Shown in pieces: positions 11,942 through 47,817 of a stretch of 64,000 nt of DNA. The stretch is from Flavipsychrobacter sp. GTDB taxonomy: Bacteria; Bacteroidota; Bacteroidia; Chitinophagales; Chitinophagaceae. The translations under genes were made by a program, and so were the position numbers. Where the stretch lies: NCBI GenBank assembly GCA_031292525.1, contig JARLGY010000037.1, positions 248,001-312,000 on the forward strand. Direction: 5' to 3'. How positions within the stretch are numbered: the first letter of the stretch is position 1; each line of letters begins with the position of its first letter. The notes beneath the pieces were generated by a model, which worked only from the letters and a program-made list of their open reading frames with translations, made no database searches and was not told the origin of the DNA.

Positions 11942-12565
11942 GTGATGATCACGCGCAGATTCCTGTATCTTTTATTAGCCATCTTACCCTTGTGCAGCCA
12001 CGCACAAGATTATAACTATAACGATAGCATAGCCCGTTACTGGCAACAGTACAAGAACGATTTTCTTACGGATGCACACAGTCCGCTAACAGCTGAAGAT
12101 ACTGCCTACTTGCGCTTCTACCCAACCAATGCGGCCTACAGCATTACTACTCACTTTACCCGTACACCCGATAGCAAACCATTTACCATGCTCACACATA
12201 GTGGCACGCGTAAAAACTATAGTGAGTACGGCTATGCAACATTTAAAGTTAAGGGCACTACCTGCACCCTGCATATATACCAAGCTATAGATCTCATCAA
12301 AAAAGACAGCAAGTATAATGACTATCTCTTCATACCCTTTACAGACGAAACAAACTATAAAGAAACCTTTGGTGGTGGCCGCTACTTAGACCTTTCCACT
12401 AAAGAAATACATGGGGACAAACTGGTCATCGATTTCAATAAATGTTACAATCCTTATTGCGCATTTAAAGGTGGCTATGCTTGCCCCATACCACCCAAAG
12501 AAAACGACCTTTCTATAAGCATTGAAGCAGGAGAAAAACTATTTGGAAAGGAAGTGAAGGAATAA
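11942..12565 (+). CDS. DUF1684 family exported protein
   Basis: The 207-residue protein has a Sec signal peptide (MMITRRFLYLLLAILPLCSHA, cleavage before QDYN). The family pattern is strong: FTDETNYKETFGGGRYLDLS, then DFNKCYNPYCAF and CPIPPKEN, then an IEAGEK tail. DUF1684 proteins are widespread in Bacteroidota and Actinobacteria and have no assigned biochemical function. Export to the periplasm or beyond is inferred from the signal peptide. It starts 16 bases after gpsA and is probably cotranscribed with it. It ends 82 bases from a convergent gene. Confidence 0.9.
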   Translation: MMITRRFLYLLLAILPLCSHAQDYNYNDSIARYWQQYKNDFLTDAHSPLTAEDTAYLRFYPTNAAYSITTHFTRTPDSKPFTMLTHSGTRKNYSEYGYATFKVKGTTCTLHIYQAIDLIKKDSKYNDYLFIPFTDETNYKETFGGGRYLDLSTKEIHGDKLVIDFNKCYNPYCAFKGGYACPIPPKENDLSISIEAGEKLFGKEVKE

Positions 12566-12646
12566 AAAGCTATATCATAAATAGCCTTTAATCGTCTATC
12601 CTGTCGATTATTATGCCCGTACTATAGGATTACCATACTCTTACAC
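12566..12646. terminator. Short convergent intergenic region with two weak hairpins
   Basis: Between the convergent DUF1684 and lipoprotein genes there are two small inverted repeats: AAAGCTAT / ATAGCCTTT just after 12565, and TAATCG / CGATTA at 12589-12594 and 12605-12610. They are weak and could end transcription from either side. Confidence 0.3.
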
Positions 12647-13723
12647 TCACTTATTTTTTAGATCCTCAAAATCTAAAAAAAGAATTTTATCTCCTTCAAC
12701 TACTATAAGCCCTGACTGTGTAGAAGTAGGATGTTGCAACGTACCTTTTGGCGGTAATGAATCGTAACACATGTAATTGTAACCACACACAAACTTATCA
12801 CCCATATGGGATACTAAAAATCTATCCAAATGGCTTCGTTTGTTATTATTAATGCTGATAGAATCGATAATAATTAGTCTCTTATTATCGTGAATAGCTA
12901 TCATATATTTCGATTTCACATTAAGAATTGAATAAATTTCATCTTTATTTGTAAAAGTTAGCAACGATATTATTCCAGAAGTATCAAAGTATTCAGAGAC
13001 TCCTGGCAAATGTATGTTGTTGTAATTTTTATAAATACTATCCACACGAACCCACCAATTTTGCAAAATTGGTTTAATATCAGGAAGTAGATATAATTTG
13101 GTTGGATCAGCTATTTGTATAAATCCAACGGTCCCATTCATATGCCTAAGATTGTTGCAAATAAGGTAAGTATTTTTATTTTTTAATACCTGTGTCGGGC
13201 AAGTGGCAGGATAGGAGTATAGTTTCTTTTTGTCCTGAAAAAATATTGACCCTCCAAATTCTCCCGCACATCCCCCATATATGGAATAGCTGCTATCTTC
13301 CAATAAAGTAGCTCTGGTTTGATTTAGAGAATGAGAGCGTTTCAGAACGAAACCGGGAGACAGATAATAAAATTTATGTCCACTAATAAGAAATACGGTA
13401 TCCCTTGCACTGAACAAGTACTCAAAGGGCATTTCATTTAGCTTTTCCTCTACACCATAAAGATGATGATATGAGGAATCTAATACAACTAGCTTTTGCT
13501 TCTGATAATTACGATCTCCTAGCAGGCATATTAAATTGCCTCCATAGCACGCAACGGATTGAATTTCCAGTGGATCACTATAAACACTTTTTTTGCCGAA
13601 AATAAAGTGGGCGTAACTTTTTAAAGGCTTGTTGTTATCATCTTTTCTATTTGTTGATGAACAACACGTAAAAAAGATGATAACAAATAGAAAAGCAAAA
13701 GCACCCTTGGCTGGAAAATTCAT
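12647..13723 (-). CDS. Hypothetical secreted lipoprotein, possibly beta-propeller
   Basis: This 358-residue protein matches no family I can name. The N-terminus MNFPAKGAFAFLFVIIFFTC followed by CSS looks like a lipoprotein signal with a cysteine at about residue 20 or 21. The rest is rich in short beta-strand patterns of the type LVVLDSSYHH, LYSYPA and SGLIVVEGDKILFLDF, suggestive of propeller blades. No catalytic motif is visible. The gene appears AT-richer than its neighbours and might be an acquired or fast-evolving gene. The DNA encoding the signal peptide and the residues just after it forms two long overlapping inverted repeats. Downstream of ppc by 67 bases on the same strand, it may be read from ppc or from its own promoter. 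Confidence 0.8.
   Translation of the reverse strand: MNFPAKGAFAFLFVIIFFTCCSSTNRKDDNNKPLKSYAHFIFGKKSVYSDPLEIQSVACYGGNLICLLGDRNYQKQKLVVLDSSYHHLYGVEEKLNEMPFEYLFSARDTVFLISGHKFYYLSPGFVLKRSHSLNQTRATLLEDSSYSIYGGCAGEFGGSIFFQDKKKLYSYPATCPTQVLKNKNTYLICNNLRHMNGTVGFIQIADPTKLYLLPDIKPILQNWWVRVDSIYKNYNNIHLPGVSEYFDTSGIISLLTFTNKDEIYSILNVKSKYMIAIHDNKRLIIIDSISINNNKRSHLDRFLVSHMGDKFVCGYNYMCYDSLPPKGTLQHPTSTQSGLIVVEGDKILFLDFEDLKNK
13632..13695 (-). repeat. Two mutually exclusive inverted repeats inside the lipoprotein gene start
   Basis: Repeat A is a perfect 15-bp pair, 13632-13646 with 13672-13686. Repeat B is a perfect 14-bp pair, 13642-13655 with 13682-13695. They share bases 13642-13646 and 13682-13686, so only one can form at a time in a transcript. 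Both lie within codons of the signal peptide (the FLFVIIF stretch) and the codons for NRKDDNN. Confidence 0.75.
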
Positions 13724-13790
13724 TATCTATTTTTATTAAGAGAGTGACTTGCGCCAACTAACAAATAAGCCATGAGCAGAGCACTTTAAC

Positions 13791-16364
13791 CTAAGCAGAA
13801 TTTCTACCAGCATTAATTATCCCGAACGAGCAGCGCATGATCAGCTTCTCCAGCGTTTTCCGCAGCTCCACATCGGTTTGTTTATTTTCTTCCATTTCAC
13901 GTACCCGACTCAGGGCATATTGCTGTATAGTAGTAAGCGGCAGTACTATGCGCTCACGCATACTTACAGAAAGGCGGTCAACAGGATATTTTTCCATCAG
14001 CTCGGTTGTGCCCCCCAGCTTCATGGTCATAGTTTTAGACAATTCATACTCGTCATGTATCATGTTCCATATGGCCCCATATTGCGGGTGGGTAGCCAGG
14101 TGTGCCGTAAGCGGGAAGAAACTCTTCATCATGGCCATCTCGCAGTTATCTATCATGGTTTTGAACAGCAGTGAGTTTTCGTACAGGTCTTTTACTTCCT
14201 GCCATCTGCCCTCGGCTTCTATTTTCTGTAAGGCTTTGCCCACACCATAGTAGCCGGTTAGGTTTTGTTTTAGCTGACTCCAGGCGCCCACAAAAGGTAT
14301 GGCGCGTAGATCATCCAGGTTTAGCTTTTCACCTTCATTGCGCTTAGCTGGCCTGCTACCGATATTAGCATCAGCGTAAAAACGCAAGGGACTTACATTT
14401 TCAAGATAAGGCACAAATTCAGGTTCATTCTTTAACGCTACATATGCTTTATAACCTTCTTCAGAAAGTTCCAGCATTAGCGCTTCCTGGTCGCGGGTAA
14501 GTGTTGGCTTTTGCTCTGCAAGTACACTATTGTATATACCGGCATGCAGCAGTTTTTCCATATTAAAACCTGCAGCATCTACATTCCCAAAGCTGCTGCT
14601 TATGGTCTGCCCCTGTATAGTTATCTGTATCTCCTTCCCGGCAATATTACTCCCTAGAGATGCGTAGAATTGGTGGGTCTTGCCACCACCTCTTGCAGGG
14701 GGTCCACCACGGCCATCAAAGAACACTACCTCTATGCCATGCTCACGGGCCACAGTTGTCAGGTTCTCCTTGGCCTTGTATATGCTCCAGTTGGCCATCA
14801 GGTAGCCGCCATCTTTGGTACCGTCGCTAAAGCCAAGCATCACATGCTGTATGTCGCCCCTCTTTTTCAGGTGAGCACGGTACGTTTCATTTTCGTAAAG
14901 CACTTTCATGCTGGCGCCTGCTTCTTGTAGGTCTTCTATCATTTCAAACAGAGGCACAATATCTACTGTCAGTTCGCTACCATCGTTTACTAATTGCAAC
15001 AAAGCGTACACTTCAATCACGTTAAGCGCACAAGTGTTGTGGCTTATTATATACCTATGGCATCCTTTTTCTCCATTATTGCGCTGTATGGTCTTAATGG
15101 CCTTCATTACATCCAGCGTATCTTGCAGCAGCCAGTCTTCAAGTACTATATCGGGCTGTTGGTGCAACTGGAGGAGGGCATCTATCTTGCCTTTTTCATC
15201 CAGGTCGTAATAACCTGCAGGCAATATTTTTTTCTGGTCATCTATTGCTTTCAGGGTCTTTGTATGCACTGTGCTATTCTGCCGTATATCCAGCGATGCA
15301 AAGTACAGCCCGAAAATGCGCACCTTCATCAGCATCTCATCAACCTGGGAAAGAAACAAACTATCATGGTCATTTATAATGGTCTGCCTTATTTCCTCCA
15401 GTGCATCTATGATCTCATGAGTTGTAATCGGCACTTCAGGTTTGTAGTATAGTGCATTAAACAGTTTCTCTTCCAGGTTGGTCACCAATGTAAGCACCCC
15501 TTTAAAAGTAAGCCTGTGGCGCAGTTTCTTAAGATCCTTATGGTAGCATTTAATAATTCGGTTATTCAGCGTTGCAGCAACATGCAGCGTAGTTTCACTG
15601 GTCACAAATGGATTACCATCGCGGTCGCCCCCGGGCCAGAAGCCCATATTGATAACGGGATTGTCATCGTGCACGGCATTGGGAAACCTGTTTTTAAGTG
15701 TACTCATAATATTGCCGGCTGCGGTGTAGAATACATGCTCCATATACCACATCAGGCTTACTGCTTCATCGTACGGTGTAGGCTTCTGCTTTTTTAAGAA
15801 TGGTGTCTTTCCCAATTGTTGCAGGTACATGTTCACATCGCCTACATTATCGTCTTTTACCGCGTTCGATAGATCGGTTATAATACCCAGTACCTCATCA
15901 GGATAAAATTGTGTCGGGTGTGCAGTCAACACAAGCCTTATTGCATAATCTTCAAGTTTTTGCTTCAGCTCCTCTTCCTTATGCCGGCTATTTACTTCCA
16001 GTTCCAATTGCTTCAGTGAGCCTTGCCCGTTCATATCGTGTATCTTGCTAAAAGCGGCATCTTCAAGGGCATCAAACAATACTACTTGTCTTTCAGCATA
16101 TTGTATAAAACGAAACAACAATTCTATTTTCTCTTGTTCCGTTGTATATGCCGTATTCTGTTGCACAAAGCCATCCACTATTTCTATAGGGTTCCTGCTT
16201 TGCTCAAAGCTTTCCTCGCAATCCATCTGGAAGAGCGACAGAAGTATTCCTGTCTTTTCAATTTTATGAAAAGGGAGCGAAGTAAAAAGGCTGTTATATA
16301 ACTGGAACTTTATGCCGACAGAATTGTTGAATTGCATTAAGGCATTGTCGCCGGTGTTTTGCAT
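13791..16364 (-). CDS. ppc: Phosphoenolpyruvate carboxylase
   Basis: Ppc carboxylates phosphoenolpyruvate with bicarbonate to oxaloacetate, refilling the TCA cycle and supplying aspartate and glutamate carbon. The catalytic His region VLTAHPTQFYPDEV, the glycine loop FWPGGDRDGNPFVT, the SDGTKDGGYLMANWSIY segment and the mobile loop FDGRGGPPARGGGKTHQFY are all present. The last differs from the classical GRGGxxGRGG form. The C-terminus ends NAGRNSA, keeping the conserved RN-S/T pattern. The frame extends upstream to 16421, but I prefer the ATG at 16364 (MQNTGDNAL...), giving 857 residues. The extra 19 residues (Arg/Tyr-rich) are not family-like. Neighbours on the same strand are amtB upstream and a lipoprotein gene downstream. 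Confidence 0.96.
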   Translation of the reverse strand: MQNTGDNALMQFNNSVGIKFQLYNSLFTSLPFHKIEKTGILLSLFQMDCEESFEQSRNPIEIVDGFVQQNTAYTTEQEKIELLFRFIQYAERQVVLFDALEDAAFSKIHDMNGQGSLKQLELEVNSRHKEEELKQKLEDYAIRLVLTAHPTQFYPDEVLGIITDLSNAVKDDNVGDVNMYLQQLGKTPFLKKQKPTPYDEAVSLMWYMEHVFYTAAGNIMSTLKNRFPNAVHDDNPVINMGFWPGGDRDGNPFVTSETTLHVAATLNNRIIKCYHKDLKKLRHRLTFKGVLTLVTNLEEKLFNALYYKPEVPITTHEIIDALEEIRQTIINDHDSLFLSQVDEMLMKVRIFGLYFASLDIRQNSTVHTKTLKAIDDQKKILPAGYYDLDEKGKIDALLQLHQQPDIVLEDWLLQDTLDVMKAIKTIQRNNGEKGCHRYIISHNTCALNVIEVYALLQLVNDGSELTVDIVPLFEMIEDLQEAGASMKVLYENETYRAHLKKRGDIQHVMLGFSDGTKDGGYLMANWSIYKAKENLTTVAREHGIEVVFFDGRGGPPARGGGKTHQFYASLGSNIAGKEIQITIQGQTISSSFGNVDAAGFNMEKLLHAGIYNSVLAEQKPTLTRDQEALMLELSEEGYKAYVALKNEPEFVPYLENVSPLRFYADANIGSRPAKRNEGEKLNLDDLRAIPFVGAWSQLKQNLTGYYGVGKALQKIEAEGRWQEVKDLYENSLLFKTMIDNCEMAMMKSFFPLTAHLATHPQYGAIWNMIHDEYELSKTMTMKLGGTTELMEKYPVDRLSVSMRERIVLPLTTIQQYALSRVREMEENKQTDVELRKTLEKLIMRCSFGIINAGRNSA

Positions 16365-39589: not shown

Positions 39590-39627
39590 AATTACTAGAT
39601 TCCTTAGGGTACTATAATTATAAATTT

Positions 39628-39658
39628 AAATAAAGCGCTACTTGTTAGCGCTTTATTT
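39628..39658 (+). terminator. Rho-independent terminator after aspA
   Basis: A perfect 13-bp stem (39628-39640 with 39646-39658) with a 5-base loop lies 38 bases after the aspA stop. The stem is A/T-rich at its base, so it could work in both directions. Confidence 0.88.
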
Positions 39659-39937
39659 AACCAACCCCAATGGATTGCGGGATAGTAAGCTGGCAACCAA
39701 CTAATCTATACTGAATTTATCTAGCCTTAGCTCTTAGAATTTTAAACTCATCCCACCGTCCACTGGCAAACGGCTATAGCAAACCGTAACATACTCCAAA
39801 CGGACATTTACCGATTTTATTTTTGGTGGTCGTTGTTAGTCACCAGGCAAAAGAAAATAGCACAATCAGTAAAAAGTACCATTATTCACTTATAATCCAC
39901 TGCTATTTACCTGGCATAGTATGTAGCTTTGCAACAG
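39659..39937 (+). promoter_or_regulatory. Upstream region of the AraC gene with a TAnnTTTG box
   Basis: The stretch is non-coding. TAGCTTTG at 39924-39931 is an exact match to the Bacteroidota -7 box and ends only 6 bases before the ATG at 39938. Transcription would then start at or next to the start codon. No good TTTG -33 element is seen at the right distance. Confidence 0.45.
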
Positions 39938-47698: not shown

Positions 47699-47738
47699 GC
47701 TTTGTCTAGCCGTTAGTTTATGAAGCGGCGAAAATAAT

Positions 47739-47775
47739 AAAAAAGCAATGTAATAGGCTATTACATTGCTTTTTT
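47739..47775 (-). terminator. Rho-independent terminator between the glucan synthase gene and the DUF3857 pair
   Basis: A perfect 17-bp stem (47739-47755 with 47759-47775) with a 3-base loop starts 43 bases past the glucan synthase stop. It separates transcription of the two blocks, unless read-through occurs. Confidence 0.9.
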
Positions 47776-47817
47776 AATTAAAATATTATATATAAACTAT
47801 TCCTGGTTATTGAGCTT

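Follow-up and report, generated by a model that had tools for sequence, protein, structure and literature searches.

The window (the whole stretch of DNA analysed here, 64,000 nucleotides from Flavipsychrobacter sp.) carries, between a DUF1684 gene and a PEPC gene, a lipoprotein gene on the minus strand in which two 24-nt arms can pair with each other in two overlapping registers, designated stem A and stem B. The features discussed below are:

12647..13723, minus strand: lipoprotein gene, 358 amino acids, 33.7% G+C, beginning MNFPAKGAFAFLFVIIFFTCC, absent from the sister genome at the same site
13672..13695, minus strand: left arm (5' in the mRNA), 24 nt, made of a 19-nt unit followed by the first 5 bases of that unit; codons 10-18, the hydrophobic core of the signal peptide
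13632..13655, minus strand: right arm (3' in the mRNA), 24 nt, the same 19-nt unit reverse-complemented; codons 23-31, the linker past the lipobox Cys
13632..13646, minus strand: stem A (15 perfect bp, the dominant hairpin), 3' side, pairing with 13672-13686
13642..13655, minus strand: stem B (14 perfect bp, at best a transient fold), 3' side, pairing with 13682-13695

The encoded protein begins MNFPAKGAFAFLFVIIFFTCCSSTNRKDDNNK, and judged by its sequence the N-terminus reads as a lipoprotein signal peptide with the Cys at residue 20 or 21. It matches no Pfam family (E up to 0.001) and no NCBIfam family (E up to 1), and its spread is patchy, with matches in 21 of 394 genomes of the family and 9 of 396 genomes of the order (both counts include the genome under study). 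The highest-ranking other match, L005, has 35% identity, and a related-locus search of genome_contigs confirmed no closer relative of the gene. The lipoprotein family is uncharacterised; a stretch resembling GGCAGEFGGSIFF recurs, by eye, in several of the homologues. The sister genome (G001), the only other member of the genus searched, has a PEPC protein that is 98% identical but holds no match to the lipoprotein in an assembly that is 69% complete. The DUF1684 and PEPC genes are 66 nt apart there, compared with 1,225 nt in the window (12566-13790), so the gene was either gained here or lost in the sister genome. In that genome the two flanking genes converge on the 66-nt gap (L044:10325-10390), which contains a hairpin (aaatagatagagcg / cgctctatctattt) resembling a bidirectional terminator. 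The G+C content of the lipoprotein gene is 33.7% against 42-45% for two neighbours, its third-position G+C is 0.29 against 0.41-0.49 for four neighbours, and those four neighbours have no match in any of the 26 homologue loci (about 1.5 kb of flank each, less in one). From composition and neighbourhood, which are no proof, we lean towards a gain of the gene here rather than a loss in the sister genome.

The two perfect pairs reported by the first-pass annotation, 13632-13646 with 13672-13686 (15 bp) and 13642-13655 with 13682-13695 (14 bp), were recovered at exactly those positions, and our inverted-repeat search also returned the five bases that they share on each side. The annotation had placed the structure in the first codons and within the signal-peptide codons; this holds for the left arm as regards the signal peptide (codons 10-18) but not for the right arm, which occupies codons 23-31 past the lipobox Cys, and with mRNA positions of +29 to +52 for the left arm and +69 to +92 for the right, the arms as a whole lie beyond the first codons. 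The spacers of the two perfect repeats are 25-26 bp, and the gap between the 24-nt arms is 16 nt. Over its 24 nt the left arm matches the repeated 19-nt unit exactly, in phase 0; the right arm, once reverse-complemented, likewise matches an endless repeat of that unit exactly over 24 nt, starting from phase 9. One arm is thus a reverse-complemented and circularly permuted copy of the other, both being read from one 19-nt unit in two phases, and the arms are complementary once circularly permuted. The first five bases of each arm return as its last five, CTTTT in the left arm and AACAA in the right, which explains the five bases common to both pairs. Because both arms fit a single 19-nt unit, the overlap requires one inverted copy and one 19-nt shift, rather than two independent repeats.

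The first-pass annotation considered such an arrangement unlikely to arise by chance, and simulation bears this out. A perfect arm of at least 14 bp appeared in 4 of 20,000 order-1 Markov strings modelled on the local 141 nt, and the longest arm in 3,000 order-1 Markov strings built from the whole gene was 13. Among 100,000 local Markov strings there was no same-direction overlapping pair whose shorter arm exceeded 12, the observed value being 14. Within the organism's own genome we scanned 679,121 bases, comprising the 64-kb window and 37 further stretches (17 + 20), in which a permuted pair with both arms of at least 10 occurs once, at this locus. Pairs whose shorter arm is 8 or 9 occur at six other places, against 12 in five simulated sets (2.4 per set), a small excess, and the 107,180 bases of homologue and sister loci contain one other permuted pair, with 10-bp arms, in the A+T-rich flank of L006. 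The same own-genome scan lists 91 perfect repeats of at least 12 bp (a few nested ones being counted twice, e.g., 47738-47776), 10 of which fall within stop-free frames of at least 150 amino acids (590,447 bases in all); at 14 bp or more there are 40 entries, three of them inside such frames, and two of those three are the repeats of this locus.

The paired region folds far more stably than its composition predicts (z is -5.57 against dinucleotide shuffles for the 141-nt region, and -3.84 against synonymous shuffles), with stem A dominant. For the first 130 nt of the transcript the minimum free energy (MFE) is -37.4 kcal/mol with stem A and -20.4 kcal/mol with stem B enforced, a preference of 17 kcal/mol for stem A. 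Averaged over its pairs, stem A forms with a probability of 0.99 in a 200-nt transcript, and stem B with one of about 5e-11. When the transcript is grown base by base, with equilibrium folds for each length rather than kinetics, stem B is the MFE fold while the 3' end lies at 13647 to 13642, about six bases; with the end at 13641 the MFE fold changes to stem A, the two stems then having roughly equal probability, and stem A is ahead from 13640 onwards. The transcript MFE is -28.0 kcal/mol at the point where the strong hairpin is just complete. A consensus scan of 12500-14000 found no terminator-like site on either strand, and a terminator at the locus was set aside as a candidate. A known RNA family was likewise set aside: with E up to 1, Rfam gave nine matches, of which eight are to microRNA models and the ninth is to Phe_leader, and none comes near its gathering score. 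The Phe_leader match lies on the strand of the locus (13599-13699; 20.3 bits against a gathering score of 55; E 0.63), and we take it as chance.

For the comparison with relatives, drawn from 26 homologue loci, we folded and measured the 10 whose lipoprotein start was clear; the other 16 were set aside by eye, being too distant, partial or lacking a clear start (L045 was translated and left unfolded). The ten homologues are 28-39% identical over the matched stretches and keep the lipoprotein architecture but not the N-terminal sequence. None of the ten has a perfect repeat longer than 8 bp in its first 200 nt, and their folding z-scores relative to synonymous shuffles lie between -1.58 and +1.35, compared with -3.84 for the gene in the window. 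The first-pass annotation had named, as the observation that would count against its proposed switch, orthologues that keep the protein sequence and lose both pairings; in the ten homologues the pairings are indeed absent, but what is kept is the architecture and not the N-terminal sequence.

These results bear on two explanations in which the RNA itself has a function. The first-pass annotation suggested that the mRNA could switch between the two stems; such a switch might be set during transcription or by a ligand or the position of the ribosome. The stems are mutually exclusive, stem B is favoured over some six bases of elongation and the sub-threshold Phe_leader match is to an attenuator, but the energetics are so lopsided in favour of stem A that we regard a switch as quite improbable: the annotation's own suggested check, RNA folding, leaves stem A alone dominant and stem B best only while the transcript ends at about 13647 to 13641. 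The equilibrium folds show neither two structures of comparable stability nor a sign of a kinetic trap, none of the 10 folded homologues has the pairing, and the consensus scan gave no terminator-like site at 12500-14000 on either strand for the fold to control, nor is there a start site, the arms beginning at +29. It is likewise unlikely, if less so, that stem A (codons 13-31) is a single functional hairpin kept by selection, slowing the ribosome after the signal peptide or protecting or destabilising the mRNA. Its stability for its composition speaks for such a role, while its absence from all 10 homologues examined, the lack of an Rfam match reaching its gathering score and its position speak against it, since the stem begins only at +38, downstream of the usual initiation footprint. 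The effect of so strong a hairpin in the mRNA, if any, would be slower or dampened translation soon after initiation.

We consider it probable, at roughly three chances in four, that the arms are a mutational scar of replication template switching, in which a segment of the signal-peptide sequence was copied backwards into the linker with one 19-nt jump. The first-pass annotation had offered a footprint of a local inverted duplication as its other possibility, and this is supported by the circular permutation of the 19-nt unit, by the single occurrence of the pattern in the 679 kb scanned and by the length of this protein's linker. The nascent strand, ending in AACAA, would have come off its template and annealed out of place to TTGTT in the left arm; after copying 9 nt of the signal-peptide segment as reverse complement it would have slipped 19 nt at the CTTTT repeat within that segment, copied a further 10 nt up to AACAA and then returned to its own template. 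Each switch would use a 5-nt match, and the linker behind the lipobox would then carry a 24-nt arm that is inverted and circularly permuted. On copying from left to right, the inserted bases would be:

13632..13650, minus strand: candidate insertion of 19 bases, preceded by AACAA and ending in AACAA

Two hallmarks of template switching are present at the locus: a long, near-perfect reverse-complement copy close to its source (24-nt arms, 16 nt apart) and short matches at the switch points (CTTTT and AACAA), the latter noticed post hoc and with no control. Removing 19 nt from either arm shifts the frame to an early stop; since a net 19 nt shifts the frame, a clean insertion into a working gene would need a second, compensating small indel, and one accompanying the switch is easy to imagine at the homopolymer runs nearby (T6 and A5). 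A scar-free allele was not found in the material searched, in which the sole sister genome is without the whole gene and the homologues are distant. We infer that one event produced the scar and that the scar is neutral.

The direction of copying was probably from the left arm to the right, making the right arm the derived copy. The distance from the lipobox Cys to a conserved Cys motif is 46 residues here; it is 31-41 in the ten homologues, and four of the five top matches have 37-38 (the first fitting Cys being taken, so that the value for L009 could be 3 shorter and that for the window 1 shorter). The lipobox Cys itself is residue 20 here and residue 15-19 in the homologues, so the part before it is nearly normal in length. 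The excess of the linker is close to the length of an arm, and because the excess residues sit on the right-arm side we take the right arm as the copy. As evidence of an insertion this excess is suggestive only, the homologous linkers themselves varying from 31 to 41. Length alone is also weak evidence for the direction, because the NTNKKD that follows the Cys in L006 resembles TNRKDD here and would point to the right arm as the older of the two, and because the protein carries other extra residues further on.

Explanations other than a template-switch scar that dispense with an RNA function fare poorly. Chance would draw on the antisense-like character of the peptides LFVIIFF and TNRKDDNN in an A+T-rich gene, and synonymous codon shuffles with the protein fixed do yield an arm of at least 14 in 13 of 5,000 cases, with folding at least as good in 1 of 1,000; part of the signal of a single repeat therefore arises because the hydrophobic and hydrophilic peptides are themselves antisense-like. 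Overlapping 14- and 15-bp repeats on a common 19-nt unit, however, are matched by none of the 100,000 simulations and by nothing else in the 679 kb, and chance as the whole explanation is highly improbable. We give similarly little credence to a library or assembly artefact in the form of a snap-back chimera: the structure is known from one genome, in an assembly of 75 contigs, but the gene's frame is intact as it stands and is broken by the loss of 19 nt from either arm, which speaks against an artefact. An intragenic inverton, in which inversion between the arms turns the lipoprotein on and off, is scarcely credible. Flipping 13642-13695 leaves the frame open and in register and replaces the lipobox, and flipping 13632-13686 puts two stops after codon 20, but spacers of 25-26 bp are short for a recombinase. 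That these 64 bases could serve as a working three-state inversion switch, with anchored, unanchored (13642-13695 flipped) and truncated (stop after codon 20, 13632-13686 flipped) forms, has so slight a likelihood that we mention it for completeness. Inverting between the arms of either stem A or stem B gives a plain 19-nt tandem repeat (worked by eye), and we considered and set aside an older state of tandem duplication followed by inversion, as an inverted copy is required on that path too. We also rejected a mobile or repeated element: the 19-nt unit has no second place in the organism's own genome within 2 mismatches and two places at 3 mismatches, and neither genome_contigs nor viral_contigs contains an exact match to the 24-nt right arm (the own or very near genomes possibly being excluded from both), so that an element of this kind is unlikely.

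Template switching has well-described parallels. Quasipalindrome template switching is documented in E. coli, with the Ripley model, the thyA hotspot and lacZ reporters (PMC7202029), and template switching that makes hairpins is documented in yeast coding genes (PMC8604942) and as a maker of RNA hairpins in RNA genes (PMC8794818). Like the quasipalindrome mutations of E. coli (PMC7202029), the present case would involve local reverse-complement copying of nascent DNA that leaves a strong inverted repeat in a coding gene; unlike them, where the outcome is a nested and more perfect palindrome, the copy here would be circularly permuted by a 19-nt jump. The mitochondria of Nematomorpha have inverted repeats that overlap within coding sequence and have been compared to attenuators (PMC6649704); there the repeats are numerous and four are common to all four species, whereas the present locus is a single case in a bacterial genome. 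With the transcription attenuators of leader-peptide genes, which use alternative hairpins, the locus shares mutually exclusive stems early in a translated region; it differs in having no terminator-like site and no balanced energies, in the absence of the pairing from the folded homologues and in lying inside a 358-amino-acid lipoprotein gene. Intragenic inversions were reportedly described by Chanin et al. in 2024, a work cited in PMC11868660. Our literature search found no paper naming the gene or its geometry in bacteria.

If the template-switch reading is right, one replication error would have added some six to eight residues to a surface lipoprotein, with a tolerable outcome because the antisense of a hydrophobic stretch is a hydrophilic linker, and the locus would offer a clear example from bacteria in which the copy is circularly permuted, of use in testing multi-jump template switching. 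The feature is of an ordinary kind and unusual geometry, with no evidence of function, and such a scar, as a known kind of mutation, leaves general views unchanged.

Several other perfect hairpins came to light in the scanned sequence. Within the window, those at 39626-39660 (15 bp) and 47738-47776 (19 bp) lie outside stop-free frames of at least 100 amino acids and are possibly terminators. The third repeat of at least 14 bp in a stop-free frame of at least 150 amino acids in the 679 kb is L057:17747-17778 (TCCTATAATATACC, loop of 4), which lies near the 5' end of its frame and possibly upstream of the start codon. At L043:4621-4675 there is a 20-bp perfect hairpin whose 15-nt loop opens with ATCTGGAA, the complement of the arm's first 8 bases, which makes it another site with alternative pairings.
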